Shown one piece after another: positions 19,516 through 36,122 of a stretch of 64,000 bases of DNA. This DNA comes from Arthrobacter sp. (lineage in GTDB: Bacteria > Actinomycetota > Actinomycetes > Actinomycetales > Micrococcaceae). A model generated the notes under the pieces. It was given only the letters and a program-made list of their open reading frames with translations, was not told where the DNA came from and did not search any database. The first letter of the stretch is position 1. Each line of letters begins with the position of its first letter. The translations under genes were made by a program, and so were the position numbers. The stretch is from contig NZ_JAPSHJ010000003.1 in assembly GCF_031179985.1 (NCBI RefSeq), positions 58,214 through 122,213 on the forward strand, read 5' to 3'.

Positions 19516-21873
19516 CTAGGCGCGCGCCCGCACGATCGGGATGCTCGCCGTCGGAAGTCCGCTGGGAAAGACTGTAGGCTCGGGCACTTCAACCGGCTCA
19601 AGTGCCACCTGCACCGCTTCGGTTCCCACGGTGTGGACTTCGCCCCGGACGCTGACGTCCAAGGGTGAACCCTCACGAACCGAAAGGTTGATGCCTTCGT
19701 GGCTGAGGTCCACATACAGAAGCCTCCCCTGGAGCTTCAGATGGAAGGAAAGCCGCTCCCATTCACTGGGCAAGCGGGGATCGAAGAACGGCAAGGCTCC
19801 CTGGTCACGCATCCCGGCAAAGCCGCACACAAGTGAACTCCAGACCCCGCCGGTGGAGGCGATGTGCACACCGTCGATCGTGTTGCTGTGGGTATCATCC
19901 AGATCGATGAACAGGGCATTTGTGAAGTGCTCCAGCGCGGCTTTTCCGTACCCCACTTCGGCGGCCATGATGCCCTGAACGCAGGCGGAGAGCGTGGAGT
20001 CTCCCGTGGTGATGGGATCGTAGAAATCGAACGCGCGCCGCTTTTCTTCGGCGCTGAAGTCTGCCCACTGCAGGAACATTGCCAGGACCGTGTCCGCCTG
20101 CTTTAGCACCTGGTGCCGGTAGATCACCAAGGGATGGAAGTGCAGCAGTAGCGGGTACTTGGAACGAGGAGTGCTCCAGTCCCAGCCCTCCAGGGTCATG
20201 AAGTCGTTGTCCTGAGAGTAAACCTGGAGCCGCTCATCGAACGGCAACTGCATACGGTCAGCAGCAGCCGCCCAAAGCTGCCGCTCGGCGTCGTCAATCC
20301 CTGCGTGGTCCAGGGCTGCAGCAGCGCGCAAATTGAAGCGCGCCATAACGTTCGTATAGAGGTTGTCATTGACAACTGCCGTGTACTCGTCCGGACCGGT
20401 GACACCGTGGATGTGGAACTGCCCGTCCTTCCCAAAGAAGCCAAGGGATACCCACATGCGTGCCGTTTCGATGAGCAGCTCGGCCCCCATGCCCGCTTTG
20501 AAGTCCTCATCTGCGCTGGCCCAAAGGTATCTGTTGGTGGCAAAGGCAATGGCGGCGGCAATGTGGAACTGAGCGGTTCCTGCAGCGTAGTAGGCGCTGG
20601 CCTCCAATCCATTGATGGTCCGCCAGGGGAACAGGGCGCCGTCCACGCTGAGTTCCTTGGCCCTGACTTTGGCATCGGGAAGCATTTCGTGACGGAATTC
20701 CAGGACTTGGCGGGCGCCGTCGGGGTTGGTGTATGTCAGGTAAGGCAGGAGGTAGATCTCCTGGTCCCAGAAATAGTGCCCTTCGTAGCCCGAACCGCTC
20801 ACGCCTTTGGCGGGAATGCCGGCGACGTCGGCACAAGCAGTTGCCTGGGCCAGCTGGAAGAGGCTCCAGCGGATGGCCTGCTGAAGTTCAGGTTGCGCAC
20901 CCACCACAATGTCCGTTGTGGCCCAGTAATCGGAATAATGCGTCTGGCTCTGGGCGAAAATATCCTCCACCGGCAAGAGCGCCGCCTCCGCGAGCTCTAC
21001 CGGGTCCTGTGCTGAAGCGTCACCCAGTGAGGGATCAACGGCGCGTGCCACGGCATAGCTGACCGACTTTTCCAACCGGAAGGGCCGGTCGGGTCCCACA
21101 GCCAGGACGTAACGGGCGTGGCTTTCGTCCGGGCCCACAGGAGTATCGAAGGGCTGAAGCACGGGCGACGTCACGTGATCCACTGCGAGCCCAATCCGCT
21201 GGCGCGATTCCGCAGCCTGCCATGACAACCGCAAAGACCCGTCGCCACCCTCAAGCCGGAGCGGAAGCAGCACGCGCCCGGCGTGCCGGCCGGCACGCCG
21301 GGGATCATGCTCGGACTGGTCCTCAACGGGCTGATCCTGGCGGTTGATCACAGAGGACGTGACGTCGGCGGAAATGTATTGATCTGCGTAAAGCTCCAAA
21401 GTGATAGCCATGCAGCCCCGGGACTCAAAACCCACTGCCCTACGCTCAACGGTTGTGACTACAGCACCGGAGCGGCACAGCCAAGTGACCCGGCACTCGT
21501 AGACACCGGTCCCGAAGTCTACGCTCCGCTGGTAGTCCTGCACGGCCGATTCGGCCAGGCTCAGGGTTTCGCCGTCAATGATCACTGTAAAGTTGTTGAC
21601 GTCCGGAATGTAGAGAATGCGCTGGCCCGTACGAGCAAAGCCGAAGGCGTTCTCGGCATGCTTGATGTCCCAGATCTCGTGGAACCCGTTGATGAAGCTG
21701 CCGGGGAGCTCGGTGTCGGCGGCGGCCCAATGTCCGCCACGGATGCCGAGGTGTCCGTTGCCGAGGCAGAAGAGCGTTTCCAGGGTTCCGGCGTTACCGG
21801 GTTCGTGGGCAGTTTCGACGAGCCGCCACGGATCCTTGGGGAACCGGGAGCGGTCAGAGCTGATGAGTGCCAT
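19516..21873 (-). CDS. Glycoside hydrolase family 65 disaccharide phosphorylase
   Basis: 785 aa, normal for GH65. The N-terminal beta-sandwich (TLETLFCLGNGHLGIRG) is followed by the (alpha/alpha)6 barrel. The general acid Glu is in GVTGPDEYT (Glu496), and substrate and phosphate sites are near GYEGHYFWDQEIYLLP and LLLHFHPLVIY. It phosphorolyses an alpha-glucoside such as maltose, trehalose or kojibiose to glucose plus beta-glucose-1-phosphate; the linkage cannot be told. The beta-phosphoglucomutase gene 56 bp upstream on the same strand supplies the next step. Confidence 0.93.
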   Translation of the reverse strand: MALISSDRSRFPKDPWRLVETAHEPGNAGTLETLFCLGNGHLGIRGGHWAAADTELPGSFINGFHEIWDIKHAENAFGFARTGQRILYIPDVNNFTVIIDGETLSLAESAVQDYQRSVDFGTGVYECRVTWLCRSGAVVTTVERRAVGFESRGCMAITLELYADQYISADVTSSVINRQDQPVEDQSEHDPRRAGRHAGRVLLPLRLEGGDGSLRLSWQAAESRQRIGLAVDHVTSPVLQPFDTPVGPDESHARYVLAVGPDRPFRLEKSVSYAVARAVDPSLGDASAQDPVELAEAALLPVEDIFAQSQTHYSDYWATTDIVVGAQPELQQAIRWSLFQLAQATACADVAGIPAKGVSGSGYEGHYFWDQEIYLLPYLTYTNPDGARQVLEFRHEMLPDAKVRAKELSVDGALFPWRTINGLEASAYYAAGTAQFHIAAAIAFATNRYLWASADEDFKAGMGAELLIETARMWVSLGFFGKDGQFHIHGVTGPDEYTAVVNDNLYTNVMARFNLRAAAALDHAGIDDAERQLWAAAADRMQLPFDERLQVYSQDNDFMTLEGWDWSTPRSKYPLLLHFHPLVIYRHQVLKQADTVLAMFLQWADFSAEEKRRAFDFYDPITTGDSTLSACVQGIMAAEVGYGKAALEHFTNALFIDLDDTHSNTIDGVHIASTGGVWSSLVCGFAGMRDQGALPFFDPRLPSEWERLSFHLKLQGRLLYVDLSHEGINLSVREGSPLDVSVRGEVHTVGTEAVQVALEPVEVPEPTVFPSGLPTASIPIVRARA

Positions 21874-21929
21874 GGTGTTGGGGTCCTTTGGCGTGAATAC
21901 CGTGATTAATGCGGGGAAACTGCGGCGGC

Positions 21930-22676
21930 CTACACCAGTTCGATAAGGTCGTTAACCACAAAGGTAGCCCCGGCGGCCAGCAAAATCTGCCGCCCGGCAC
22001 CCCTGTCTACGCCGATGACCGAATGGAACTTTCCGGAGCTGCCGGCCTTCACCCCGGAGACTGCATCCTCCACCACAACGCACTCCTCGCTCGGCAGCCC
22101 CAGCAGCCGTGCAGCGTAGTCATATGTGGCAGGATCCGGTTTGCCGGGCAACCCTTCGGAGGCAGCCACAACGCCGTCTACCACCACAGGAAAGTGGTGT
22201 GAAAGCCCCGCTGCCTCCAGCACGGCTGGAGCATTTCGGGAGGATGAGACGACGGCGAGTTTAAGTCCGCGCGCAAGTGCTGCTTCAATGAAGCGCACCG
22301 AACCTTCATAGGGCTCCACTCCCCCGGCCACGATCTCGTTGAAGACCAGGTTCTTGCGGTTGCCGAGGCCCTGCACTGTTGCGTTGGAGGGATCGTCGTC
22401 GGCGGGCCCTTCGGGAAGCACGATGCTCCGGGAAGCGAGGAAGTCCCGGACGCCGTCGAACCGTGGTTTTCCGTCGATGTGGTCGAAGTAGTCGCTTTCG
22501 CGGTATCCCGCTGCGCTGGGCACCGACTCGAGGTAACCGTCGAACAGTTCCTGCCACGCACGCTCGTGAACCACGGCGGTGGGCGTCAGGACGCCGTCAA
22601 GATCAAAGAGGATGGCTGAGGCAGTGGTCCAACTGCTGAACCGGTCATTTTGGGCGCTGCTGTGAAGTTTAGGCAT
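21930..22676 (-). CDS. pgmB: Beta-phosphoglucomutase family HAD phosphatase
   Basis: 248 aa. HAD motif I is ILFDLDGVLT (DxD type variant with D-L-D), motif II VVSSSRN, Lys in GLPGKPDP and motif III VVEDAVSGVKAG; the cap has HIDGKPRFDGVRDFL. It converts beta-glucose-1-phosphate to glucose-6-phosphate and pairs with the GH65 enzyme downstream. A consensus-like promoter overlapping a LacI-type operator lies 85-113 bp upstream. Confidence 0.93.
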   Translation of the reverse strand: MPKLHSSAQNDRFSSWTTASAILFDLDGVLTPTAVVHERAWQELFDGYLESVPSAAGYRESDYFDHIDGKPRFDGVRDFLASRSIVLPEGPADDDPSNATVQGLGNRKNLVFNEIVAGGVEPYEGSVRFIEAALARGLKLAVVSSSRNAPAVLEAAGLSHHFPVVVDGVVAASEGLPGKPDPATYDYAARLLGLPSEECVVVEDAVSGVKAGSSGKFHSVIGVDRGAGRQILLAAGATFVVNDLIELV

Positions 22677-22760
22677 GCGGATACTGTCCTTTCAGACGTG
22701 AGGCATGGTGCATTGGGGTGCGCCTTTGGCAGAGGCGTCTTCGCCGCATGGCCGAAGTCG

Positions 22761-22789
22761 AGTGTAAGCGCTTGCAATTCCGCTTGCAA
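22761..22789 (-). promoter_or_regulatory. Sigma-70 promoter with LacI-family operator for pgmB-GH65
   Basis: On the minus strand TTGCAA (22789-22784), 17 bases, then TACACT (22766-22761) form a good -35/-10 pair. TGTAAGCGCTTGCA (22763-22776) over the -10 fits the LacI/GalR operator pattern with central CG. A second half-like CTTGCAA overlaps the -35. Confidence 0.7.
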
Positions 22790-22948
22790 GTAGTTTTTTA
22801 GTTCCTGGCGCTAAGACAATGAATAGGAGGGAAGACGGCACATCAAGGCGGCTTATTACGGCCGGTTCGGTCCAGGTGAGGCGGCTCCGTGCCGTACGGC
22901 CGGCAGGCACCACCATGGGGCCAGAACTGCTCATTTGGAGGGAACGAC

Positions 22949-23326
22949 GTGGAACCTATCGTTATCGAGGGCGGCAAGGGCACGGTGGCGCTGGGTTCCG
23001 ACGGGGTGATTCACCTCGTGTGGAAACCCAAGGTCATTATTGACCGCAGAGCTTCTGAGGCAGCGATGGCCATGGTCAACGAGATCAGTGCCGGCTCTGA
23101 ATATCCCATGCTTGTGGATATGGCCACAACCGAATCGGTGAGCCGCGATGCCCGGGCAGTGTTTTCCATCCCCTGTGCAGCTAACCGTATCGCCTTACTG
23201 GGCTCGAGCCCGGTGGATCGCGTGCTGGCGAACTTTTTCCTTGGAATCTACACCCCTCCGTGCCCCACGCGGTTCTTCACGTCCAGGAGCGATGCCATGA
23301 TCTGGCTCAAGAAGACGGGCCCCTGA
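22949..23326 (+). CDS. STAS/SpoIIAA-like small protein (DUF7793 type)
   Basis: 125 aa from the GTG at 22949, with GGAGGGA at 22937-22943; an upstream start at 22889 lacks a ribosome site. Alternating beta/alpha pattern with GTVALGSDGVIHLVWKPKVI, YPMLVDMATTESVSRDARAV and CPTRFFTSRSDAMIWL, as in the STAS-like family found next to sensory genes in Arthrobacter. Probably cytosolic, possibly a regulator by protein interaction; no partner gene is adjacent. Confidence 0.78.
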   Translation: MEPIVIEGGKGTVALGSDGVIHLVWKPKVIIDRRASEAAMAMVNEISAGSEYPMLVDMATTESVSRDARAVFSIPCAANRIALLGSSPVDRVLANFFLGIYTPPCPTRFFTSRSDAMIWLKKTGP

Positions 23327-23346
23327 ACAACCCCTCCCGCGGGTGA

Positions 23347-23964
23347 TCAGCGCAGCACGTAGTGGCGGAGGAAAGCGCTGACGTCCACCATCTCTGCCTT
23401 ACACATCGCGTGCCCCATACCCGGATAAGTGCGCGCCGTCAGCTGAGTGTTCCGGTGCAGCCACTCCTCAGTAAACGCAATGGCTTCCTCATTGATGACC
23501 AGGTCTGCTTTATCCCTGCCCCAAAAGAAGGGCGGCGGGGACTCAAAAGATTCACTGATCGACAAGAGTTCGTTGTCCAAAACAAACCCGGAGAGTCCGA
23601 CGACGGCCCGGTACTCCTGCGGTCGAAGCCGCAGCAGAGTACTGGCCATAGCCATCCCTTGCGAATATCCCAGCAGGCTCACGCTGGTGTGCTGCCCCTT
23701 GACGGTGTTTATCCAGTCAGCCACCTTGTTGGTGACGGCAATGACATCGGCAAAATCATTGGTGAGGAAGTAGTCCAGCAGGAACCAGCCATAGTGGTCC
23801 CCGATGTCCGTGGGAGCCCGGAGCGCGGCGCACGTGAAATCCTGGGGCAAGTGGGGAAACAGGTTCACCATGCGGGATTCGTCGGTGCCGTAGCCGTGCA
23901 TCATAACCAGCAGCGGCGTCCCAGCGCGTTCATCTTCAGGCTTGGACCATACGACTGTCTCCAT
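23347..23964 (-). CDS. Alpha/beta hydrolase, phospholipase/carboxylesterase type
   Basis: 205 aa. The nucleophile elbow is GYSQG (Ser), the oxyanion region is MMHGYGTDE, and the catalytic His is in YPGMGHAMCKAEM; the Asp is likely in GRDKADLVI. Size and motifs fit the carboxylesterase/phospholipase family (PF02230). Cytosolic, substrate unknown. It converges with the STAS-like gene over a 20-bp gap. Confidence 0.88.
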   Translation of the reverse strand: METVVWSKPEDERAGTPLLVMMHGYGTDESRMVNLFPHLPQDFTCAALRAPTDIGDHYGWFLLDYFLTNDFADVIAVTNKVADWINTVKGQHTSVSLLGYSQGMAMASTLLRLRPQEYRAVVGLSGFVLDNELLSISESFESPPPFFWGRDKADLVINEEAIAFTEEWLHRNTQLTARTYPGMGHAMCKAEMVDVSAFLRHYVLR

Positions 23965-24059
23965 CAGATCAGCCTAGCTTTGTCCGTGGAGTGCCATCGC
24001 AGCCGTTGCGACGCGCCGGAGAGGCGGACGTTGAATCAACCGGTGGCCGGATGTAGCCT

Positions 24060-24091
24060 GACAACAACACAGCATGCTTAGCATTGTTGTC
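24060..24091 (+). promoter_or_regulatory. Nested inverted repeats upstream of DUF6458-like gene
   Basis: GACAACAA (24060-24067) pairs with TTGTTGTC (24084-24091). Inside sits a second palindrome, ATGCT-T-AGCAT (24074-24084). Candidate operator or 5' leader hairpin for the gene at 24138. Confidence 0.5.
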
Positions 24092-24137
24092 GCCAAGTCC
24101 TCCATGGACTTGTCCACCCGGACAAAAGGAGAACGTC

Positions 24138-24395
24138 ATGAGAATCGGTTCCTCCATCTTCCTGATCGCCCTCGGTGCGATCTTGGCCTGGGCAATAACC
24201 CCCGGTCTCATCCCCAACGTTGACATGACCCTGATCGGCTACATTCTCATGGCTGTCGGAGTTATTGGTCTGATCGCGTCCCTCATCCTCGCGTCCCCGG
24301 GGCGCAGCCGCAGGGTCAGCGAGACCCGGTCCGTCGTCGACCCCAACACGGGAGAACAGATCACCCGGAACGAAAGCCGGGACGGCAACATCTGA
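24138..24395 (+). CDS. Small two-helix membrane protein, DUF6458-like
   Basis: 85 aa from the ATG at 24138 with AAAGGAGA upstream. Two transmembrane helices (SIFLIALGAILAWAITPGLI, about 5-24, and LIGYILMAVGVIGLIASLIL, about 32-51) and a charged cytoplasmic tail (VDPNTGEQITRNES). This layout is that of DUF6458-type proteins widespread in actinobacteria; function unknown. Confidence 0.82.
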   Translation: MRIGSSIFLIALGAILAWAITPGLIPNVDMTLIGYILMAVGVIGLIASLILASPGRSRRVSETRSVVDPNTGEQITRNESRDGNI

Positions 24396-24438
24396 CAGAC
24401 GGTACGTCTGACAGACAGTCCGTCTGACAGCAACCGGT
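24391..24438. repeat. 16-bp tandem repeat over the stop codon
   Basis: TCTGACAG recurs at 24391, 24407 and 24423, exactly 16 bases apart; the first two units differ at 2 of 16 positions. Each unit boundary contains CAGACGGTACGTCTG-like short palindromes, so folding in RNA is possible. Confidence 0.65.
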
Positions 24439-24519
24439 CCGGGCGGCAGTCGCAGGGCGGCCTCACCGGCAGAGGTCGATACAACACGAGACCCCTACTG
24501 CGCCAGGACACTACTCCCG

Positions 24520-25752
24520 CTAAGACACGCCTGCGGCGACACTCCTGTGCGCCGCCAGGAATGCTGCAATCCTCCGCACCGCTTCCCTGATGTCTTGTAC
24601 GGACGGAAGAATCACGAAGCGGAAATGATCCGGCCGGGGCCAGTTGAATGCTGTCCCATGTGAGACGAGGATCTTTTGCTCCCGCAGGAGGTCAAGGACA
24701 AACTGCTCATCGCTCTCGAAGGGATACAGCTCCGGGTCCAGCCGGGGAAAGAGATACATGGCGCCGGCAGCGGGGATACAGGTAACGCCGGGAATCGCGG
24801 TGAGGAGTTCAAAGGCGAGATCCCTTTGTTCACGCAGTCTGCCTCCGGGCCGGATCAACGCCTCAATGCTCTGGTACCCGCCCAAGCAGGTCTGTATTGC
24901 ATGCTGGGCAGGAACGTTGGGGCACAGGCGCAGCGACGCCAACAGTTCCAGCCCTTCACGGTAAGCGAGGGTAGCTGCCCGGGGACCCGTGATTGCGACC
25001 CACCCGGCCCGGTACCCCGGCATCCGGTATGCCTTCGAGAGCCCGCTGAACGTCAGGCAACAGACGTCTTCTGCCACTGAAGCGGTGTGGATGTGCTGGG
25101 CGTCCTCGTACCGGACCTTCTCGTAGATCTCGTCGGAGAACAGCACCAGATCATGCTTGCGGGCCAACGCAGCAAACTGTTCCAGGATGTGCCTCGGGTA
25201 AACGGCTCCCGTGGGGTTGTTCGGATTGATGATCACCATGCCTTTGGTGCGGCTGGTGATCTTCGATTCAACCTCGGCCATATCCGGCCACCAGTTTTCA
25301 TTCTCATCGCACACGTAGTGCACCGGCTTGCCGCCTGCCAGTGTCACCGCCGCCGTCCACAGCGGGTAATCAGGGGCGGGGATCAGGATTTCGTCGCCGT
25401 TCTCCAGAAACGCCTGCAGGGTCATGGAGATCAGCTCGCTGACACCGTTGCCGATGAAGATGTCCTCGACGCCGATCTGCATCAATCCCCGCGTCTGGTA
25501 GTACTGGGAAATGGCTGTGCGGGCGGAAAATATGCCTTTGGAATCGCTGTATCCCTGCGCTCCGCGGAGATGGTGAATCATGTCCAGCACAACGGACTCC
25601 GGGGCTTCGAGCCCGAACGGTGCGGTGTCGCCTAGATTCATTTTGAGGATCCGGTGCCCCTCTGCCTCCATCTCCCTTGCCGCTTGGAGGATGGGCCCAC
25701 GAAGTTCGTAGTTAACGTTCTGGAGTTTGCTGGAATGGTGCATCGGAGGCAT
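24520..25752 (-). CDS. Pyridoxal-phosphate aminotransferase, class I/II (AlaA-like)
   Basis: 410 aa from the ATG at 25752; a GTG at 25767 would add five residues. Fold type I aminotransferase: NPNNPTGAVY, FSDEIYEKVRYEDA, and the PLP lysine in TFSGLSKAYRMPGYRAGW. An N-terminal SSKLQNVNYELRGPILQAAR and the overall pattern match the AlaA/AspC-like alanine-pyruvate/glutamate aminotransferases of actinobacteria. Likely transaminates alanine or a related amino acid. Monocistronic. Confidence 0.92.
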   Translation of the reverse strand: MPPMHHSSKLQNVNYELRGPILQAAREMEAEGHRILKMNLGDTAPFGLEAPESVVLDMIHHLRGAQGYSDSKGIFSARTAISQYYQTRGLMQIGVEDIFIGNGVSELISMTLQAFLENGDEILIPAPDYPLWTAAVTLAGGKPVHYVCDENENWWPDMAEVESKITSRTKGMVIINPNNPTGAVYPRHILEQFAALARKHDLVLFSDEIYEKVRYEDAQHIHTASVAEDVCCLTFSGLSKAYRMPGYRAGWVAITGPRAATLAYREGLELLASLRLCPNVPAQHAIQTCLGGYQSIEALIRPGGRLREQRDLAFELLTAIPGVTCIPAAGAMYLFPRLDPELYPFESDEQFVLDLLREQKILVSHGTAFNWPRPDHFRFVILPSVQDIREAVRRIAAFLAAHRSVAAGVS

Positions 25753-25846
25753 GGCTAATCTTTTCACAGCTCGGGAACATGCCTCGAAAAGTCAACACCT
25801 TTTTCCCGAACGTTCCGGCAAAATTTCGTGCTTCTGTACAGGGCTT

Positions 25847-26353
25847 CTAAGGAGTGACGGTCAGTGGCTTCATGGGCGTGGCGCACGCGACCAGCTGCAA
25901 AGTTGGCACCGTTCCACCCGCGCGGTTGTTCCTGCCGGTGTCATCGCACCAATCGACGGCATACGGGGTGGCTGTGACGAAGCCTTCTCCGGGTGCCGCC
26001 TGAGGCGGGATTTCAAAGCTGTAGGTGAACCCGCCGGCGTCGTTCATGTCAGCAGTTTCGTCGATGATCTCCACCCCGGCAGCGTCGGTGACCACCACCC
26101 AGATAAGGGCATTTTCACCGTAACGGGGATCGCAGTCAGCGTTAGATGCAGTCACCCTCACGGTCTCACCCCGGCTGGCACTTGACGGATCCACTGAGTA
26201 AGCGGGAGGCATACAGGGCGGCGGCCCGTCCCCCGACGACATAACGCAACCGGAGGCAGCAATCACCACCAGGATCACGGTGGCCAGGGTGGCCCACGAT
26301 TGAAGGGTTCGAGGGTTTAGAAGGCCGGCGGGTACCCCTGAAATGAGCGTCAT
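25847..26353 (-). CDS. Lipoprotein of unknown function
   Basis: 168 aa from the ATG at 26353. The signal peptide is basic/hydrophobic (ATLATVILVVIAASGC), with lipobox IAASGC, so the mature protein starts with lipidated Cys. The mature part is a single beta-rich domain (PAYSVDPSSASRGETVRVTA, GGFTYSFEIPPQAAPGEGFV) with four further Cys, resembling an Ig-like/IPT surface domain. Ribosome site is weak (GAAAAA). Longer in-frame starts would bury the signal peptide and are rejected. Confidence 0.8.
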   Translation of the reverse strand: MTLISGVPAGLLNPRTLQSWATLATVILVVIAASGCVMSSGDGPPPCMPPAYSVDPSSASRGETVRVTASNADCDPRYGENALIWVVVTDAAGVEIIDETADMNDAGGFTYSFEIPPQAAPGEGFVTATPYAVDWCDDTGRNNRAGGTVPTLQLVACATPMKPLTVTP

Positions 26354-26465
26354 TTTTTCAGTATTCGCGCATTGGCTTTGATTGAGCCCCCAGGCAGAAA
26401 ATTCGTGGCCGTATCGTTGCCGGATAAGGGACTGCGCTCGCTTGCCTTTCGGCAACAAGGTCGGA

Positions 26466-26511
26466 GCAAAGGCAATGCCCCGCTTTGCAGGGGCATTGCC
26501 TTTGCTTTTTG
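26466..26511. terminator. Perfect 16-bp hairpin terminator
   Basis: GCAAAGGCAATGCCCC (26466-26481) pairs exactly with 26490-26505 around an 8-base loop. TTTTTG follows on the plus strand. It lies just past the stop of the minus-strand Nramp-like gene, where no T-run follows in that direction, so orientation is uncertain. Confidence 0.75.
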
Positions 26512-26517
26512 TGCTTA

Positions 26518-27813
26518 TTAGCTGAGCAGAGTGGTGATGAGCCTCACGGATGAGGCCACGATAGCGATAAGGCCGATAGCGCCGAGGAGGTTGTGCCACC
26601 AGCGGTTCCGAAGGCTGCCCATCAGCTCGGGCTTGTTGCTCATGATGAAGAGCAGAATGCCCAGCATGGGTGCAATGAGGACGGTCAGTGACTGGGCAAT
26701 AACAATCAGGCCTACTGGCGAGGACTGGAACAAGAGCGTGATGACCAGGCCGAACGCCAGGATGATTCCGGTGACGACGCGCGCCGTCGTCGATCCTGCC
26801 TTGGCACCCCGGCCGAGGGCGTCAGAGAGCATGGTGCCGCCGGCGGTTGCATTGGCGATCATCGAGGAAAATGCTGCACCTGAGAGGCCAAGTGCGAAGA
26901 GTATGGAACCCACAGGGCCGGCCAGGGGCGCAAAAACTGAGGCGAGGGCGTTGATGGTTCCCGCTTCCGCCCCCGTCTTGCCCAAAACCGAGGCGGCAAC
27001 GATGATGACGAGTGCTGTCATGATGCCGGGGGCTACGATGCCGGGGATCGTATCGACGAGGGTGATGTCGCGGTAGTCGGCCCGGCTGCGGCGATGTTCC
27101 TTGACACCGTAGGAGGTATAGAACGCAGCGTTGATCGAGAAGTTGGTGCCTACCAGCGCCACGATAAGGATTTCACTTCCGGCTGGCAACTGCGGAACCA
27201 TTCCTTCCATTGACCTGTACCAGTCGGGCTGCGCGACAACAGCGCTGGCAACGAACGCCACCGCCATGAGGGCAACGATAACCAACAAGGCCTTTTCAAT
27301 GATTCCGTAGACATTCCTGAAGGCAAGGACGAACCCGACGGCGGCAGTGCAGACCACCGTCCAGAGCACAGGTGAACCGCCGAAGATCAGGGACAGCCCC
27401 AAGCCCGATCCAACGGCGTTCCCGACTGAAAACATCAGCGTGATTCCGAAGACGCCAAATCCTGCCATGACGCCCACCCACTTACCGAGGTGTTCCTTGA
27501 TGGAGGTGATCAGCGAGGTGGGTGTAACAATGCCCAGCCGGACGCTCATGTCGGTGAAGAAGATCATGAGGACGGTGGATACTGCAATGACCCAGACAAG
27601 GGTGTAGTCGAACCGGCTGCCGGCCTGGACGGCGGTAGTGAGGTTGCCGGGTCCGAACTGCCAGGCTCCCACCACAAAGGCCGGACCCATAAGCGCAAGG
27701 TAACCAAGGAACGTCCGGCGTTTGGCTGGTACGGCCGGAGCGGCGTTGTCCTCGTGGGTGACCATCTGACCTCTTTTATCCAGGGGGTGGATGGTCTTAT
27801 TCTGCTCGCTCAT
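26518..27813 (-). CDS. Nramp-fold transporter with non-canonical metal-site motifs
   Basis: 431 aa from the ATG at 27813 with GGAGG seven bases upstream; longer in-frame starts run back into the upstream gene and are rejected. Eleven or so helices and overall pattern are those of the Nramp/SLC11 family. The canonical DPGN of helix 1 is GPGN (residues 54-57: FGPGNLTTAVQAGS), and the MPH block of helix 6 is replaced by VGTNFSINAAFYTSYGV, lacking the metal-binding Met. Such remodelled members transport other ions or perhaps organic substrates. Partner gene is a dihydrodipicolinate-synthase-like enzyme 154 bp upstream, and a LacI regulator lies beyond, so a catabolic uptake role is a fair inference. 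Confidence 0.85.
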   Translation of the reverse strand: MSEQNKTIHPLDKRGQMVTHEDNAAPAVPAKRRTFLGYLALMGPAFVVGAWQFGPGNLTTAVQAGSRFDYTLVWVIAVSTVLMIFFTDMSVRLGIVTPTSLITSIKEHLGKWVGVMAGFGVFGITLMFSVGNAVGSGLGLSLIFGGSPVLWTVVCTAAVGFVLAFRNVYGIIEKALLVIVALMAVAFVASAVVAQPDWYRSMEGMVPQLPAGSEILIVALVGTNFSINAAFYTSYGVKEHRRSRADYRDITLVDTIPGIVAPGIMTALVIIVAASVLGKTGAEAGTINALASVFAPLAGPVGSILFALGLSGAAFSSMIANATAGGTMLSDALGRGAKAGSTTARVVTGIILAFGLVITLLFQSSPVGLIVIAQSLTVLIAPMLGILLFIMSNKPELMGSLRNRWWHNLLGAIGLIAIVASSVRLITTLLS

Positions 27814-27893
27814 TGCGAGTCCTCCTTCTCCAGCGGCGTTGCTGGGGGTCGTCGTTGACCGATGGTGGAGACCGAAAGGTTCTTCGCCGAGAT

Positions 27894-27938
27894 GGCACTT
27901 CGCGGCAATGCTGGGCGTCAGCACTGCCGTGAAGTGCC
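27894..27938 (-). promoter_or_regulatory. Long hairpin between the two operon genes
   Basis: GGCACTTCGCGGCAATGCTG (27894-27913) pairs with 27919-27938 with 18 of 20 matches and a 5-base loop. It lies in the 154-bp gap between the lyase and transporter genes. With no U-run it is more likely an mRNA stability or processing element than a full terminator. Confidence 0.6.
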
Positions 27939-27967
27939 TTCTCGCGTTAGGGGTGTTGGGACTGAGA

Positions 27968-28903
27968 TCAGGCGGGAACGGTGACGTTGCCCAGATTGGC
28001 CGACCGAAGGGCCAGGCCGATTTCGTCACTGGCACCTGGAGCCAGGGGAAGCAGCGGCGGTCGGACGGTTGCGTGCTCAAGAATCCCGCGGGCCACGAGT
28101 CCTTCCTTGAGGGCCACTGTGCCTTCCATGTGGGATCCGCGGTGGTAGACATTTTTTGTCACCGGAAGCAGGCGGTCATGGATTGCCCGCGCCGCAGCGT
28201 AGTCCTTTGCCTTGCCGGCGGCGATCAGCTCCACCAGCGGTTCGGGGGCGAGTCCGCCATATCCGACCAGCGCGCCGTCAACGTCAAACATGGTGTGCAG
28301 CAGATACTCGTCGTGGCAGGTGAGAATTTGCAGGTCCGGGTAGGTTGCCCGCAGGACCGGGATCTCGGTGTCCCAGCGCTTCATGTTCCTGACACCGTTC
28401 TTGGTAGCAAAAACGCCTTCCTGGCCCGCAATCTCCAGCTGGGTCTCGAGGTCGTAAGTGGCCTTCGTGGCATCGGGGTATTGGAACAGGATCAATGGAA
28501 GGCCGGAAGTCTCGTAAATTTCCGTGTAGCGGGTCTGCGGTGCACCCTGCTGGTATCCGAAGCGCAGCCACCCGTGCGAGGGGTATACCAAGCCTGCAGC
28601 TGCGCCGGCATCGACTGCCCGCTTCGCCTCGAGGGCAGCGACTTTGTTGCCCTCGCCTGTGATGCCGGCGATGATCGGCACGCTGCCGTTCACGGCATCA
28701 CGGAACGCGGAGATCACGAGCGCCTGCTCGTCTTGAGTCAGGAAGGTTCCCTCACCAGCGTGCCCAAGGACGACGAGGCCCTTGACGCCATCAACGCTGG
28801 CGAGCCAAGCGCCGAGCCGGTGGATTGCCTCGACGTCGACGCTTCCGTCCCGGGTGAAAGGGGTTACTGGAGCGGGAACCAACCCGCGAAGATCGATGGT
28901 CAT
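27968..28903 (-). CDS. Dihydrodipicolinate synthase/N-acetylneuraminate lyase family protein
   Basis: 311 aa. TIM-barrel class I lyase: N-terminal APVTPFTRDGSVD, GHAGEGTFL at the GxxGE pyruvate site, Tyr in LILFQYPDATKATYD and the Schiff-base Lys168 in GVFATKNGVRN. It should cleave or condense a 2-keto acid, or dehydrate a sugar acid; true DapA is unlikely because of its setting. First gene of an operon with the Nramp-like transporter, controlled by three tandem AACGTT sites and the divergent LacI-type repressor. Confidence 0.9.
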   Translation of the reverse strand: MTIDLRGLVPAPVTPFTRDGSVDVEAIHRLGAWLASVDGVKGLVVLGHAGEGTFLTQDEQALVISAFRDAVNGSVPIIAGITGEGNKVAALEAKRAVDAGAAAGLVYPSHGWLRFGYQQGAPQTRYTEIYETSGLPLILFQYPDATKATYDLETQLEIAGQEGVFATKNGVRNMKRWDTEIPVLRATYPDLQILTCHDEYLLHTMFDVDGALVGYGGLAPEPLVELIAAGKAKDYAAARAIHDRLLPVTKNVYHRGSHMEGTVALKEGLVARGILEHATVRPPLLPLAPGASDEIGLALRSANLGNVTVPA

Positions 28904-28962
28904 TTTGAACTACCTCTGTCTTGTCATTCGTAGTCCCGCACTAGGGGTGCAACGTGGATGAG

Positions 28963-28992
28963 AACGTTTGCGGGAACGTTTTCAGGAACGTT
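28963..28992. promoter_or_regulatory. Array of three AACGTT operators, 12-bp spacing
   Basis: AACGTT occurs at 28963, 28975 and 28987, each embedded in GGAACGTTTTC-like context. LacI-family operators commonly centre on such a CG palindrome. The array is just downstream of the -10 of the lyase promoter, as expected for a repressor site. Confidence 0.75.
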
Positions 28993-28995
28993 TTC

Positions 28996-29025
28996 ATTGT
29001 GCGACGTGGTCCGCGTCACTGTCAA
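28996..29025 (-). promoter_or_regulatory. Promoter of the lyase-transporter operon
   Basis: Minus strand: TTGACA (29025-29020), 18-base spacer, CACAAT (29001-28996). The operator array begins four bases past the -10. Confidence 0.65.
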
Positions 29026-29089
29026 GGGCTGATTTTTGAAAAGAGGAAATAGAGTGTCTCCTAGGACCGTCTTTAACAGGAGAATGCGC

Positions 29090-30115
29090 ATGGAACCATC
29101 CGCCCCAAGCACAAACGTCACCCTCAGGGACGTTGCAGCAGCCAGCGGCGTGAGTCTTTCCACTGCAAGCCGGGCTCTTGACGAACGCGGCACCGCCTCG
29201 CGCTCCGCCGCCGCAGCGCATGTTCGAAAAGTCGCAGAGGAACTCGGCTATCGGCGGAACTCATTCGCATCGAGTTTGCGCCGCGGCGAGACACGGACTC
29301 TGGGAGTACTGGTCCCGCGCCTTAGCGATACCGTCATGGCGCTAATGTTCGAGGAAATAGAGCGGGCAGCATCGGACCGCGGCTACTTCGCCATGGTGGC
29401 GACCAGCGGCGATGACTCCGAAGACGAACGACGCGCGGCGGAAACCCTTTTGGACCGGAACGTGGATGGACTGATCCTCGCCACCGCCCGGCTCGATGAC
29501 CAGCTTCCACGCCTCCTGCGGGAGCGTGGCGTAGCGCACGCCCTCGTCCTGCGAACCGACGGAGTCAGCCCGTCAGCAGTCGGCGACGACGAAGTCGGCG
29601 GATATCTGGCCGTTCGGCACCTGATCGACCTCGGGCATCGCGACATAGCTGTAGTCACCGGCCCCTCATTTACATCCAGTGCAATCGCACGCCTGGCAGG
29701 CGCCCGGAGGGCCCTGGCGGAGGCAGGGATTGATCCCCGTGAGCAGTGGATGCTGGCAGCCGGCTATGGGATTGAGAACGGGTTCTCAGCCGCGGAATCT
29801 CTGCTGGGTAAGAAAATCGACAAACGACCTACTGCAATTTTCGCGGCCAACGACAACATAGCCATGGGAGTCATTGCAGCTGCCCATCGTTTCCAGATCA
29901 CGGTGGGGCAGGACCTGGCACTGGTTGGCTACAACGACACCCCCCTCTCGGCCAGGCTCTCAACCCCGTTGTCCTCAGTGCGCGTGCCTCTCGATCAGAT
30001 CGCCTCCACTGCTATCGACCTCATCGTCAGCCCCGGCAAAGAACCGCTCATACGGAAGTCGATGCCGACCCTGATACCGCGCGAATCAAGCGGACCACCT
30101 AAGCATTTTCAATGA
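29090..30115 (+). CDS. LacI family transcriptional repressor
   Basis: 341 aa from the ATG at 29090 with AGGAG seven bases upstream. N-terminal helix-turn-helix VTLRDVAAASGVSLSTASRA with the hinge helix RRNSFASSLRRGETRTLGVL. The periplasmic-binding-like effector domain ends with PTAIFAANDNIAMGVIAAAH and LALVGYNDTPLSARLSTPLS, as in LacI/GalR proteins. It is divergent from the lyase-transporter operon, and the three AACGTT sites lie between them, so it very likely controls that operon and itself; effector unknown. Confidence 0.93.
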   Translation: MEPSAPSTNVTLRDVAAASGVSLSTASRALDERGTASRSAAAAHVRKVAEELGYRRNSFASSLRRGETRTLGVLVPRLSDTVMALMFEEIERAASDRGYFAMVATSGDDSEDERRAAETLLDRNVDGLILATARLDDQLPRLLRERGVAHALVLRTDGVSPSAVGDDEVGGYLAVRHLIDLGHRDIAVVTGPSFTSSAIARLAGARRALAEAGIDPREQWMLAAGYGIENGFSAAESLLGKKIDKRPTAIFAANDNIAMGVIAAAHRFQITVGQDLALVGYNDTPLSARLSTPLSSVRVPLDQIASTAIDLIVSPGKEPLIRKSMPTLIPRESSGPPKHFQ

Positions 30116-30130
30116 AGCGGTCACCCGTAG

Positions 30131-30847
30131 CTAGCCCATAGCGCGGGCATCTGGCGTGGCGCCACTCGTCCAGTTCTGCTGATGGAGCCGCTCAAAGCCG
30201 TCAAGGAGGAGGTTCAGGGCAAACTCGAACTCGAACTGGTCGTCGCATCCAGTGCCGACTGCCGTTTCCTGTTCGTGAGACCCGGCCGTGGCAATGTCGA
30301 TAATGTAGGGATACTGCATTGCTACCTGGTGGAACAGAGCTGCCCGCTCTTCAGGATCCGCAGGTGGGGGCGGCGTGGGAAACACCTCCTGGGTGAATCC
30401 CCACATCCTGCTCCCGAGAGCGTGCATCACGTGGTGGGTAAGGTCGGCCGAAAGTCCCCCCGCCCGAAAGAGCCGGATCAGCGAATCCATGTATTCGAGC
30501 ACCACCGGCGGCGCATGGGTGCGGGACTCGACCACCTGGGATGCCCAACGGTGGCGCAGCATGGCTTCACGGGCGGAGAGGATCCGCAGCCGTACTGCTT
30601 CCTTCCAGTTTTCGTCCCGGACGCGGGTGTCGATCTCGCTGACGATAACCTCCACCATGCCATCCAGGAGCTCTTCCTTGTTCGCCACATGTTTGTAGAG
30701 CGCCATCGGCACAACATCCAGCTTTTGGGAGAGCTTACGCATGCTGAGCGACTCAACTCCCGCTTCATCAGCGAGGGCGACGGCGGCATGCAGGACGCGC
30801 TCCCTGCTCAGCGGCGCGCGGCGCCCCGAATTTCCCGTCTGGGCCAA
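30131..30847 (-). CDS. TetR family regulator with TetR_C-type ligand domain
   Basis: 238 aa from the TTG at 30847, chosen for AAGGTGG upstream; the frame extends to a start at 30904 that overlaps the operator. The helix-turn-helix is SRERVLHAAVALADEAGVES then LSMRKLSQKLDVVPMALYKH. The C-terminal region has the TetR_C pattern (HRWASQVVESRTHAPPVVLE, LGSRMWGFTQEVF) seen in tetracycline-repressor-like proteins. Two strong palindromes in the divergent gap are its likely operators, with the DUF4386 gene as target. Confidence 0.92.
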   Translation of the reverse strand: MAQTGNSGRRAPLSRERVLHAAVALADEAGVESLSMRKLSQKLDVVPMALYKHVANKEELLDGMVEVIVSEIDTRVRDENWKEAVRLRILSAREAMLRHRWASQVVESRTHAPPVVLEYMDSLIRLFRAGGLSADLTHHVMHALGSRMWGFTQEVFPTPPPPADPEERAALFHQVAMQYPYIIDIATAGSHEQETAVGTGCDDQFEFEFALNLLLDGFERLHQQNWTSGATPDARAMG

Positions 30848-30882
30848 GTGACCACCTTCCGTTGGAGCTCCAGGTCTACCTG

Positions 30883-30941
30883 TTGACAAGTGTACAACGT
30901 ACACCTATCGTCGTAGGCATTGCTGGTGTACGCCGTACACC
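30883..30941 (+). promoter_or_regulatory. Promoter with two TetR-type operators
   Basis: TTGACA (30883-30888), 17 bases, TATCGT (30906-30911). GTGTAC-AAC-GTACAC (30890-30904) fills the spacer. GGTGTAC-GCC-GTACACC (30925-30941) lies over the transcription start. Both share the pattern GTGTAC-N3-GTACAC. Confidence 0.85.
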
Positions 30942-30963
30942 TTTCACTGCAGGAGAGACGAAA

Positions 30964-31671
30964 ATGATTTCAACCCGAAGAATCGCCCTGGCTGCCGGCA
31001 TCCTTTTCCTCGCCACCCACATCAGCTCAATCACGGCACGCGCCCTCTACCTGCCCGTTCTCAGCAATCCCGCCTATATCAATGGAGGGGGCCAGGACAG
31101 CCAGGTGTTTCTGGGCGCCCTCCTTGAAGTGGTCCTGGCCCTCACGATTGTCGGAACCGGTGTGGCCCTTTACCCCGTAATCAAGCGCAAGAACGAGGGC
31201 CTCGCGCTCGCGTATGTGACACTTCGCACCCTTGAGGCCGGAGTCATAGCCGTGGGAGCAATCCCCCTCCTTACTATTGTGACGCTGCGGCAGGATCTAA
31301 CGGGCATGCCCGGCGCCGACTCCATCCCTCTCGCCAGCGCCCTTGCTGCCTTCAACAGCTGGGCCTTCCTGATCGGGCCAAGCCTGATCTGCGGAACCAA
31401 CACCGTGCTACTCGCCTACCTGCTGCACCGTTCCGCCCTCGTACCCAGGTTCATCTCCATACTCGGGCTGATTGGCGGCCCGCTGGTCTTCGCGTCCGGG
31501 ACCGCCCAGATGTTCGGCGCCTATGAGCAGGTTTCAGTGTGGGCAGGAATTGGCGCCGTGCCCATCTTCGCCTGGGAAATCTGCCTTGCCGTCTACTTCA
31601 TAGCAAAGGGCTTCAAGCCAGTGGTCCAGGCTGGCGTAAGTGCCCACCCGGCTCCCGCACTGAAGGTCTAA
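30964..31671 (+). CDS. DUF4386 family membrane protein
   Basis: 235 aa with six or seven transmembrane helices. Family features are the RRIALAAGILFLATHISSI start, GAYINGG-like loop, LGALLEVVLALTIVGTGVAL, and PALICG-like GPSLICGTNTVLLAYLLHRS. Function unknown. AGGAGAGACGAAA precedes the ATG. Controlled by the divergent TetR regulator through the two palindromes upstream; this arrangement suggests induction by a small molecule. Confidence 0.88.
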   Translation: MISTRRIALAAGILFLATHISSITARALYLPVLSNPAYINGGGQDSQVFLGALLEVVLALTIVGTGVALYPVIKRKNEGLALAYVTLRTLEAGVIAVGAIPLLTIVTLRQDLTGMPGADSIPLASALAAFNSWAFLIGPSLICGTNTVLLAYLLHRSALVPRFISILGLIGGPLVFASGTAQMFGAYEQVSVWAGIGAVPIFAWEICLAVYFIAKGFKPVVQAGVSAHPAPALKV

Positions 31672-31702
31672 CCGAGCATCGCACCTCTGTCCGACAGAAA
31701 GG

Positions 31703-31748
31703 GGGCCGCCCTCCTTCGCTGAGCAAGTCAAGCGAAGGAGGACGGCCC
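31703..31748 (+). terminator. Rho-independent-type terminator after DUF4386 gene
   Basis: An 18-bp stem with one mismatch (GGGCCGCCCTCCTTCGCT with 31731-31748) and a 10-base loop is followed by TTCTTTG. Confidence 0.8.
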
Positions 31749-31781
31749 TTCTTTGTCGATCTTTGTTTATGTGGTTTTTCA

Positions 31782-31816
31782 TTGACAAACCAACACGATC
31801 AAAGATAAAGTCAAAG
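31782..31816 (+). promoter_or_regulatory. Promoter and repeated TCAAAG sites of the fru operon
   Basis: TTGACA (31782-31787), 18 bases, TAAAGT (31806-31811). TCAAAG occurs at 31799-31804 and 31811-31816, direct repeats of the kind bound by DeoR-type regulators such as the downstream FruR. Confidence 0.6.
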
Positions 31817-31921
31817 TATTCAACATGGGTGTGATGCCTGTCACGAGCACCAAGGAAACATCGTCTGGGACTGGCACTCTCAGCTTTTCGCAGTAATCGA
31901 CCTGTACGCAATGGAGGGTAA

Positions 31922-32731
31922 GTGTTTGCTGAAGAGCGCCAGCAGCTGATCGCAGGGCTTGTTGCTGAGAGCGGCAGGGCCAGCGTCACTGATTTGGCGG
32001 AGCGGTTCAGCATCACCACCGAAACCGTCCGCAGGGACCTTGCGGCCCTTGAATCGGTTGGAAGCCTGCGTCGCGTCCACGGCGGAGCAGTTGCCGCCGA
32101 TCGATTCAGCACCACCGAGGAGAGCATCCTGGTTCGTACGGTGCAGAAGCAACCGGAAAAACTCAGGATCGCGGAGGCTGCTTTGGGCTTCGTTCCGGAA
32201 GGCCCTTCGGGAAGCATCCTGATGGACGCCGGCTCCACAACGGAAGCCCTGGCGGATCTTCTCGCTCTTCGGATGTCTGATCCGTCTTCGGCCCCGGCCG
32301 TGGCGAATGGCAACGAACTCGTGGTTATCACCAACGCAATTCCCATCGCGGGAAAGCTTGCCGGAGAACCCGGAATTGCCCTCCAGATCCTGGGAGGCCG
32401 CGTGCGCGGACTAACCCAGGCTGCAGTGGGCCAGTCAACAGTGGAGGGGGCGCAACGGATTCGTCCCGACATCGCCTTCATCGGCACCAATGGAATACAC
32501 GCAGCCTTCGGGTTGAGCACTCCCGATCCTGAAGAAGCCGCCGCCAAGGCTGCCTTCGTCCAATCGGCCCGCCGGATCGTTGTGTTGGCTGATTCGTCCA
32601 AGCTGGATGCAGAGACCCTGGTCCAGTTCGCTTCGTTGAAAGATCTGGATACCTTGATTACAAACAGTGAACCCAGCCCGGAACTGGCAGCGGCCTTGGC
32701 CGAAGCCGGTGTAGAGGTGGTGATCGCATGA
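31922..32731 (+). CDS. fruR: DeoR family regulator of fructose utilisation
   Basis: 269 aa from the GTG at 31922 with GGAGGGTA upstream. N-terminal DeoR helix-turn-helix (ASVTDLAERFSITTETVRRD then LRRVHGGAV). The sugar-phosphate isomerase-like sensor domain (MDAGSTTEALADLLA, VITNAIPIAGKLA, DIAFIGTNGIH) would bind a phosphorylated fructose intermediate. It heads fruR-fruK-fruA-ptsH and its stop overlaps fruK by 4 bp. Confidence 0.92.
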   Translation: MFAEERQQLIAGLVAESGRASVTDLAERFSITTETVRRDLAALESVGSLRRVHGGAVAADRFSTTEESILVRTVQKQPEKLRIAEAALGFVPEGPSGSILMDAGSTTEALADLLALRMSDPSSAPAVANGNELVVITNAIPIAGKLAGEPGIALQILGGRVRGLTQAAVGQSTVEGAQRIRPDIAFIGTNGIHAAFGLSTPDPEEAAAKAAFVQSARRIVVLADSSKLDAETLVQFASLKDLDTLITNSEPSPELAAALAEAGVEVVIA

Positions 32732-33726
32732 TTGTCACCCTTACAGCCAATCCCAGCCTGGACCGCACCGTGGCGCTGCCATCACCCTTGGAACGCGGGG
32801 AAGTCCAGCGAGCAGTTTCCGTAAGCCAGGAGTCCGGCGGGAAGGGCGTAAACGTCTCCCGTGCATTGGTTTCTTCCGGACTCGAAACCATCGCCATACT
32901 TCCGGGCGGCGACGGGGATCCCGTGTTGGCAGGACTACGGGATGGCGGTGTTCCTTTTGCCGCGCTTGCCATCGGCGAGCCGTTGCGGACCAACGTGGCA
33001 CTGACCGAACCAGGCGGTGTGACGACCAAAATCAACGAACCCGGCCCTGAACTGAACGCCGAACAGCAGGAGGCCCTGATCGGGCTGCTGCTGGAACGTT
33101 CCCAGGGTGCCACCTGGGTCGTTCTGGCTGGCTCCCTCCCACCCGGAGTCCCTGCCGACTTCTATGCCACCGTCACCCGGCGGCTCCGTTCCATGAGTAA
33201 CGGCCATGATGCCCCCCGCATCGCCGTCGACTCCTCTGGTGAACCACTGAGCGCTGCCATATCCGGGGATGAAAACGGCGGCATCTCCGGAAAGCCGGAC
33301 CTTCTCAAACCCAACGCTGAGGAACTTGCGGAACTGGCCGCAGCAGCCGGCTTCTCAACAGTAGTTTCTGCCGAGGAACTTGAAGCGGATCCGCTGGCAG
33401 CAGCAAACGCGGCTGCCGCCGTCGTCCGTTCCGGGGTGGGTGCTGTTCTTGCCACCTTGGGCTCCAAGGGCGCGGTTCTTGTAACGCCCGACGGCGCGTG
33501 GCTGGCTACCCATGCGCCGGTCAAGGCCGTCAGTACTGTCGGCGCCGGGGATTCCTCGCTCGCAGGTTATCTGCTCGCTTCCAGCCGAGGCGCGGCTCCC
33601 GCCGACTGCCTGCGTCAGGCTGTGGCACACGGTGCCGCCGCCGCTTCCCTGCCGGGCTCCACAGTTCCGGCAGTCCACCAAACCACCCCCGATGCCGTAA
33701 CCATCACGGCCCTCCGGAAGGACTGA
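32728..33726 (+). CDS. fruK: 1-phosphofructokinase
   Basis: 332 aa. PfkB-family kinase: N-terminal MIVTLTANPSLDRTVAL, substrate motif ESGGKGVNVSRAL, KPNAEEL, and the C-terminal anion-hole motif VGAGDSSLAGYLL with the catalytic Asp. Converts fructose-1-phosphate from the PTS to fructose-1,6-bisphosphate. An extra segment near residue 155 (RSMSNGHDAPR) is slightly longer than usual. It overlaps fruR (ATGA) and ends one base before fruA. Confidence 0.94.
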   Translation: MIVTLTANPSLDRTVALPSPLERGEVQRAVSVSQESGGKGVNVSRALVSSGLETIAILPGGDGDPVLAGLRDGGVPFAALAIGEPLRTNVALTEPGGVTTKINEPGPELNAEQQEALIGLLLERSQGATWVVLAGSLPPGVPADFYATVTRRLRSMSNGHDAPRIAVDSSGEPLSAAISGDENGGISGKPDLLKPNAEELAELAAAAGFSTVVSAEELEADPLAAANAAAAVVRSGVGAVLATLGSKGAVLVTPDGAWLATHAPVKAVSTVGAGDSSLAGYLLASSRGAAPADCLRQAVAHGAAAASLPGSTVPAVHQTTPDAVTITALRKD

Positions 33727-33727
33727 C

Positions 33728-35788: not shown

Positions 35789-35843
35789 TCCGTCTGAAAA
35801 CTTTCACCAACAGAATCCCCGTACAGCAATGCAAGGAGCAGAA

Positions 35844-36122
35844 ATGCCAGAACGTACCGCAACCGTCGCCAGCCGTGTCGGCCTGCACGCCCGCCCCGCC
35901 GCCATCTTCGCCGAGGCCGCCGGGGAGTTCGACCTCGACATCACTATCGCACGTGAAGGCGAGCCCGCAGACGAAGCCATGGACGCAGCCAGCATCCTGT
36001 CGCTCATGAGCCTGGGAGCATCCCACGGTGACGTTGTGGTCCTGCGCGCTGACGGTGACGGCGCAGATGCTGCCCTGGACCAGCTGGTCCAGATCCTGGA
36101 AACGGATCACGACGCCGAGTAG
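35844..36122 (+). CDS. ptsH: HPr phosphocarrier protein
   Basis: 92 aa from the ATG at 35844 with AAGGAG upstream; a start at 35829 is unlikely. Phospho-His15 in GLHARPAA; Ser50 (AASILSLMSLG) sits where regulatory Ser46 of firmicute HPr is. Transfers phosphate from enzyme I to FruA. Last gene of the fru operon; enzyme I is not in the window. A strong hairpin follows. Confidence 0.95.
   Translation: MPERTATVASRVGLHARPAAIFAEAAGEFDLDITIAREGEPADEAMDAASILSLMSLGASHGDVVVLRADGDGADAALDQLVQILETDHDAE

Follow-up and report, generated by a model that had tools for sequence, protein, structure and literature searches.

The window, by which we mean the whole 64,000-nucleotide stretch of Arthrobacter sp. 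DNA that was analysed, contains a compact locus whose computed anatomy comprises a gene for an Nramp-fold transporter, a gene on the same strand for a class I lyase/dehydratase, and a divergent gene for a LacI-type regulator, together with operators and several predicted hairpins (Table 1). The span given in the preliminary description, positions 26518-28903, excludes the LacI gene and the operators. The transporter starts at an ATG at 27813 with AGGAGG just 5' of it; the program-made list of open reading frames places the start upstream, at 28152, and this extension is unnecessary. Judged from the sequence, the LacI gene probably starts at an ATG at 29084 or 29090. Two matches to the promoter consensus were found in the region, against 1.0 expected.

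Table 1. Features of the transporter-lyase-regulator locus (window coordinates).
Feature	Position	Strand	Basis or remark
Terminator-like inverted repeat 3' of the transporter stop	26463..26508	.	T run on + strand; folding z -6.8
Nramp-fold transporter, 431 aa	26518..27813	-	Pfam Nramp E 5.9e-73
TM6 TNFSIN replacing ATxMPH	27130..27147	-	residues 223-228
TM1 GPGN replacing DPGN	27643..27654	-	residues 54-57
Small hairpin GGUC-AACGAC-GACC, ~45 nt 5' of the transporter start	27847..27860	-	hexaloop of the AANGAN type
Long hairpin in the lyase/transporter gap	27888..27944	-	intergenic folding z -5.6
Class I (Schiff-base) lyase/dehydratase, DHDPS family, 311 aa	27968..28903	-	Pfam DHDPS 5e-33
Three LacI-type operator half-palindromes	28959..28996	.	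AACGTT cores 28963-28968, 28975-28980, 28987-28992
Promoter-like TTGACA-18-CACAAT into the lyase, just 5' of the operators	28996..29025	-	consensus only
Divergent LacI-type regulator	29036..30115	+	Pfam LacI 8.3e-10, Peripla_BP_3 5.5e-34

Elsewhere in the window, a DeoR-type regulator, a PfkB-type kinase, a PTS fructose-type permease, and an HPr-like protein are encoded consecutively at 31922-36122, an arrangement resembling an ordinary fructose operon; DeoR was named from a Pfam profile search and the others from the sequence. On the minus strand at 19516-22676, a glycoside-phosphorylase-like protein adjoins a HAD-type phosphatase, as judged by eye.

The transporter meets the membership threshold of the Nramp/SLC11 family (Pfam Nramp, 246 bits; cut-off, 29.8). 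It is also accepted at 110 bits by the NCBIfam equivalog NF037982, "Nramp family divalent metal transporter" (cut-off, 50 bits), and metabolic models therefore assign metal uptake to it. The PDB structure closest to its AlphaFold model (pLDDT 84.5) is DraNramp (6c3i; Z 49.7, rmsd 2.0, 378 aligned), and the other matches include EleNRMT (7qji, Z 48.4), a YcsG model (9a52, Z 44.2), and the amino-acid transporter ApcT (Z 31.5). As predicted by this model, the fold is beyond doubt the LeuT-type fold of Nramp.

Canonical Nramp/MntH proteins share this fold (E. coli MntH is 23% identical), whereas the TM1 DPGN, the TM6 MPH, and the acidic TM3 residues that define them are all absent from the window protein. 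In the alignment with E. coli MntH, D34, A206, M209, and H211 of TM1 and TM6 correspond to G54, T223, S226, and N228, the acidic TM3 residues of the proton path, E102, D109, and E112, correspond to F122, S129, and N132, and the further position H216 corresponds to T233. Of the metal and proton residues tested, N37 alone is retained, as N57. G54, N57, T223, S226, N228, F122, and N132 are invariant in the nearest clade (83/83 rows). The acidic and sulfur ligands have therefore been lost, and uncharged polar residues that do not vary within the clade occupy their positions, although the central site was assessed from the alignment, without coordinates or a ligand. In TM2, D88 and R92 are invariant in the nearest clade, D88 being changed in the more distant loci L105, L107, and L182. 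The NRMT Mg2+ transporters (EleNRMT, CabNRMT) likewise have the fold and non-canonical motifs, but their signature, DxxG in TM1 and TxxA/T in TM6 (PMC8806188), is not met by the window protein, which has GxxN (GPGN) and TxxS (T223-NF-S226) instead.

The model of the lyase (pLDDT 86.5) has the DHDPS TIM-barrel fold (Z 34.0 to 3flu), and both the barrel and the Schiff-base lysine are common to DapA, NanA, and YagE, to which the window lyase is 20-24% identical; its K168 aligns with their lysines and is invariant in the eight aligned rows. Tyr133 and Arg138 of DapA, mutants of both of which are named among the structural matches, are replaced by Phe140 and Ala145, which implies that the window lyase is not a DHDPS. 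A true DHDPS (DapA) was ruled out on these substitutions and on the NCBIfam dapA score of 107.7 bits, which lies below the cut-off of 206.15. The residue matching DapA Tyr107 is uncertain owing to a three-residue insertion in the alignment. N-acetylneuraminate lyase was also rejected, as the NCBIfam equivalogs scored 70.8 bits against a cut-off of 281 and 37.7 against 382. The lyase subgroup has a signature of its own, GHAGE, HGWLRFG, and CHDE, the last of which aligns with the GYDE stretch of NanA. The acids of NanA contact sugar hydroxyls. On the strength of this alignment and of these contacts, a polyhydroxylated acid would be a plausible substrate of the lyase, the reaction itself being unassigned.

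The regulator satisfies membership of the LacI family by its DNA-binding domain, its periplasmic-binding-type domain, and the palindromic operator. The operators were computed across related loci: of the 74 regions between divergent LacI and lyase genes, all but that of L086 have the AACGTT core (73; mean for mononucleotide shuffles, 2.5), and 45 have it doubled at 12 bp. When a wider regulon able to point to the pathway was sought in the own genome, nine strand matches of TGNRAACGTTNNCR were found versus one for the reversed control, and only the pair on C17 is the doubled local site. The identifications offered in the preliminary description are therefore borne out: GPGN and TNFSIN for DPGN and MPH by translation and by the MntH alignment, the class I lyase by its Pfam match and K168, and the LacI-type regulator by its Pfam match and the AACGTT operators.

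Among the 84,980 species genomes searched, 113 loci encode a relative, and 80 of these loci were kept. The lyase adjoins the Nramp gene in 78 of these 80 loci and LacI is present in 77; the order LacI(-) lyase(+) Nramp(+) is found in 74, and three more hold all three genes in another order or strand. The exceptions, L075 without LacI and L077 and L087 without lyase and LacI, all begin 3-241 bases from a contig end. The loci span several phyla and include Paracoccus, Brevundimonas, Agrobacterium, and one record labelled Planococcus. When the genes of 82 loci were clustered with a crude gene finder, three families stood out (79, 72, and 71 loci), the next being present in eight, and no fourth recurrent gene able to name the substrate emerged from this clustering. 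pxpABC is not recurrent in the 82 loci, where only the lyase and LacI recur, so the test for a PxpT/YcsG-type operon was not met. Of 248 genomes in the order, seven contain the Nramp subgroup (56-100% identity), and the identical seven contain the lyase subgroup (75-100%); the next-best lyases reach at most 34% identity. A search of the phylum for the lyase at E 1e-60 returned the own genome alone (1/396), indicating that the module is rare and patchy. By this computed association, which is beyond chance, the three genes are a self-contained module.

The other six Nramp matches in the order (36-39% identity) belong to a different arrangement, typified by L097-L102, in which a LacI gene diverges from an Nramp gene of the same identity, and behind the latter lie an epimerase-type gene and a gene only very distantly related to the DHDPS family (in L101, Pfam Epimerase 3.2e-7 and DHDPS 4.5e-7). 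In L182, LacI, a DHDPS-family gene, and Nramp are again arranged as LacI|lyase-Nramp; its lyase is 31% identical to that of the window, and GH[A/T]GE, WLRFG, and CHDE are common to both. Scanning with profiles detected a DHDPS neighbour for 18 of the 20 GPG[N/S]-clade loci versus one of 70 other Nramp-family loci; 30 of these 70 control loci have flanks of only ~1.4 kb, so neighbours may have been missed. Two haloarchaeal GPG[N/S] members have no DHDPS neighbour: the Nramp relative of L105 adjoins heparinase II/III, Gfo/Idh/MocA, and sulfatase genes, and that of L107 adjoins Gfo/Idh and amidohydrolase genes. The diverged relatives of L182, of L097-L102, and of haloarchaea thus keep to catabolic surroundings, which favours an organic substrate. 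Members of the GPG[N/S] branch are named "divalent metal transporter" throughout. A phylogeny against NRMT and classic Nramps, proposed in the preliminary description as a check, separated the GPG[N/S] clade from both: in a 69-row Nramp tree, this clade (14 rows, SH-aLRT 99) stands apart from the DPGN rows (nine rows, 100), and the NRMT-like rows are separate too (27 rows, 98). This tree was a quick one from which 22 rows were left out. L194 was dropped for want of an Nramp match. Long branches occur in the Nramp and lyase trees, chiefly L003, L182, L192, and L101.

The neighbours of other Nramp-related genes were also noted. The setting in L192 (4512-9325) is one of sugar acids: an Nramp-related gene there adjoins a glucarate dehydratase-like gene, which scores 664 bits against a cut-off of 829, and a 3-dehydro-L-gulonate 2-dehydrogenase-type gene, which scores 368 bits against 316. 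In L187 (2683-9665), an Nramp-related GVGAGDM gene adjoins gamma-glutamyltranspeptidase and hydantoinase B/oxoprolinase genes, and in the haloarchaeal L106 (7983-12811), genes for hydantoinase/oxoprolinase A and B come immediately after an Nramp-family GPGT gene. The other two Nramp-family genes of the own genome, L130 and L131 (on C22 and C1), lack DPGN and have GVGAAD and GPGF; the former adjoins a two-component system and an NMT1-like (TAXI-type) protein, and the latter, 21% identical to the window transporter, adjoins a D-glutamate cyclase-type gene. The own genome, the assembly of which is 96% complete, yielded no Nramp with DPGN.

The transporter beside the lyase is exchanged in other genomes. 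Sixty-five plasmid records carry the lyase subgroup, with a lyase identity of at least 60% in 54, and 17 regions, hand-picked for organism spread and therefore not random, were opened. One plasmid only carries an Nramp above 36% identity, and among the opened regions that of Neorhizobium petrolearium alone has an Nramp gene. The lyases of the other 16 regions are 61-82% identical to that of the window in 13 cases and 35-40% in three. In these 16 regions, an MFS transporter adjoins the lyase in 11 (L208, L210-L213, L215-L219, and L222), a TAXI-TRAP transporter in two (L214 and L223), and a larger cluster with a tricarboxylate-type or SSS transporter is found in two (L209 and L220); in L221, no transporter is annotated by the lyase and the LacI match is split in two pieces. 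For the 13 loci with 61-82% lyases, MFS stands next in ten and TRAP in one. The regulator is a LacI at least 50% identical in eight of the 16 regions (plus the two-piece L221), a distant LacI in two, LysR in four, and IclR in one. Where the LacI protein of an MFS or TRAP locus reaches 50% identity to that of the window, a similar operator is mostly kept, for example GGGAACGTTCCC in L214-L217, L219, and L222.

On a 43-row lyase tree, which leaves out four lyases and L221, the transporter label requires at least eight changes, the minimum possible being four, and the Nramp label alone requires six, three of which are forced by well-supported branches. Within the Rhizobiaceae, the swap occurs between loci with lyases 87-91% and LacI proteins 77-79% identical: Agrobacterium salinitolerans (Nramp) versus A. 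fabrum (MFS), with 89% and 77%, and N. petrolearium (Nramp) versus Rhizobium leguminosarum (MFS), with 91% and 79%. The swapped loci add porins, and L212 and L213 add a fumarylacetoacetate-hydrolase-type gene and a C4-dicarboxylate carrier. None of the enzymes in the swapped loci exceeds a curated cut-off that would name the substrate. For the MFS proteins, the nearest family is TIGR00895, at 213-230 bits (cut-off, 418.55). These swapped loci indicate that one enzyme, regulator, and operator type is served by three transporter folds, two of which carry organic solutes. This exchange beside the same lyase is the strongest argument that the Nramp protein carries the substrate of the lyase.

The gap between lyase and transporter also has structure of its own. 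The corresponding gaps of 17 other loci have differing hairpins in the place of the long hairpin (median z -3.9, range -1.3 to -5.7). For the small hairpin, an AANGAN hexaloop on a stem of at least 4 bp was found in 49 of 77 lyase-Nramp intergenic regions (mean for shuffles, 0.3); the family form is NGUC-AAYGAC-GACN', with a variable outer pair (GC, AU, or CG). It is missing from 13 swapped or Neorhizobium loci, save one weak match, and its core is not rare genome-wide (eight sites versus nine for the reversed control).

NRAMP family members inside repressor-controlled catabolic operons, as in the window, have been described. For PxpT of Corynebacterium glutamicum, deletion is reported to block growth on 5-oxoproline, the authors leaving metal transport possible (PMC13274462). 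The partners of PxpT and YcsG are pxpABC and the GntR-type PxpR, whereas those of the window transporter are a DHDPS-type lyase and LacI. A 2026 preprint describes Nramp-related proteins as a paraphyletic group without metal motifs and as alkaline-earth carriers ancestral to the metal Nramps (PMC12873925). A literature search found no relevant paper that connects Nramp to LacI or to a DHDPS lyase, and the main text of a study of LacI regulons (PMC4052901) makes no mention of Nramp, dihydrodipicolinate, or Arthrobacter.

We infer, with a probability of roughly 0.8, that the Nramp-fold protein imports a small organic nutrient and not a metal, although there are no uptake, growth, or binding data. 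This reading follows from the lost metal site and from a three-gene cassette in which relatives carry organic-acid transporters. The imported solute is most likely the substrate of the lyase, which is unidentified; its inferred class is probably that of the carboxylates, with sugar acids and 2-keto-3-deoxy or other keto acids as examples. The locus would then be a LacI-controlled uptake-and-cleavage cassette, in which the Nramp-fold protein may act as a secondary importer of the solute, the solute or an early product would bind the LacI protein and release it from the doubled AACGTT operators, and the cytoplasmic Schiff-base lyase would cleave or dehydrate the solute into products for central metabolism. 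The direction of transport, the substrate class, the inducer, the coupling ion, and the reaction are all inferred in this scheme. The judgement in the preliminary description that ordinary Mn/Fe transport is unlikely is supported by the change of the metal and proton-path residues to invariant uncharged ones, by the tie to lyase and LacI, and by the MFS and TRAP substitutes. Its proposal of uptake and breakdown fits as regards an organic acid, given the same tie and swap, but "sugar acid or keto acid" can only be inferred, because the substrate is unidentified; and an organic-substrate transporter of the Nramp fold, which it regarded as new, is not wholly so, as PxpT is a precedent (PMC13274462).

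The transporter might still import a divalent metal, Mn, Mg, or another, that the pathway needs. Its fold is that of Nramp, and Mn import is reported for two NRAMPs of catabolic operons, YcsG/MntG in a 5-oxoprolinase operon (PMC10448178) and MumT, less than 25% like known NRAMPs and encoded with a urea carboxylase (PMC5050338). We consider this unlikely, since all the metal and proton residues compared are lost in the alignment, N37 excepted, and MFS and TRAP transporters occupy the same slot elsewhere. To our knowledge, class I lyases do not require a metal. The NRMT Mg2+ transporters retain the TM1 Asp (PMC8806188), as do the NRMT-like rows that were compared, whereas the window protein lacks it. 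A subset of NRMT genes has an M-box riboswitch (PMC4072509), whereas Rfam at gathering thresholds gave no match in window positions 22000-34000 and thus no M-box or Mn riboswitch there.

If the protein carried a metal chelated by an organic compound, for instance Mg or Mn bound to a sugar acid, the metal claims would square with the catabolic settings, and the replacement of ligands by uncharged polar residues would be accommodated. This seems very unlikely, as the MFS and TRAP families that substitute for it are not known to carry chelates in this context and no charge-balanced site has been shown. That the protein exports a product of the lyase instead of importing its substrate cannot be dismissed from gene order alone, which does not decide direction, and expression of lyase and transporter may differ because the long hairpin separates their genes; however, no alternative importer recurs by the lyase in the 82 loci, and the swapped loci hold porins and TRAP, which are uptake systems, so that we regard export as highly improbable. 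Import of an organic solute remains the preferred reading.

A wider extension is evenly balanced in our judgement and forms one proposition: that the GPG[N/S] branch consists of importers of organic solutes (sugar or keto acids) in actinobacteria, alphaproteobacteria, and haloarchaea, that much of the paraphyletic Nramp-related set carries organics, and that metal transport is one specialised outcome of an organic-solute ancestor. Its second part rests on PxpT and on other Nramp-related groups whose genes have glucarate-dehydratase or glutamyl-transferase neighbours. If the window protein is an organic-acid carrier, a family held to be metal-specific, PxpT aside, would gain a second organic clade; the same lyase and regulator with three unrelated transporter folds would provide an unusual natural control; and the finding would bear on the origins of Nramp.
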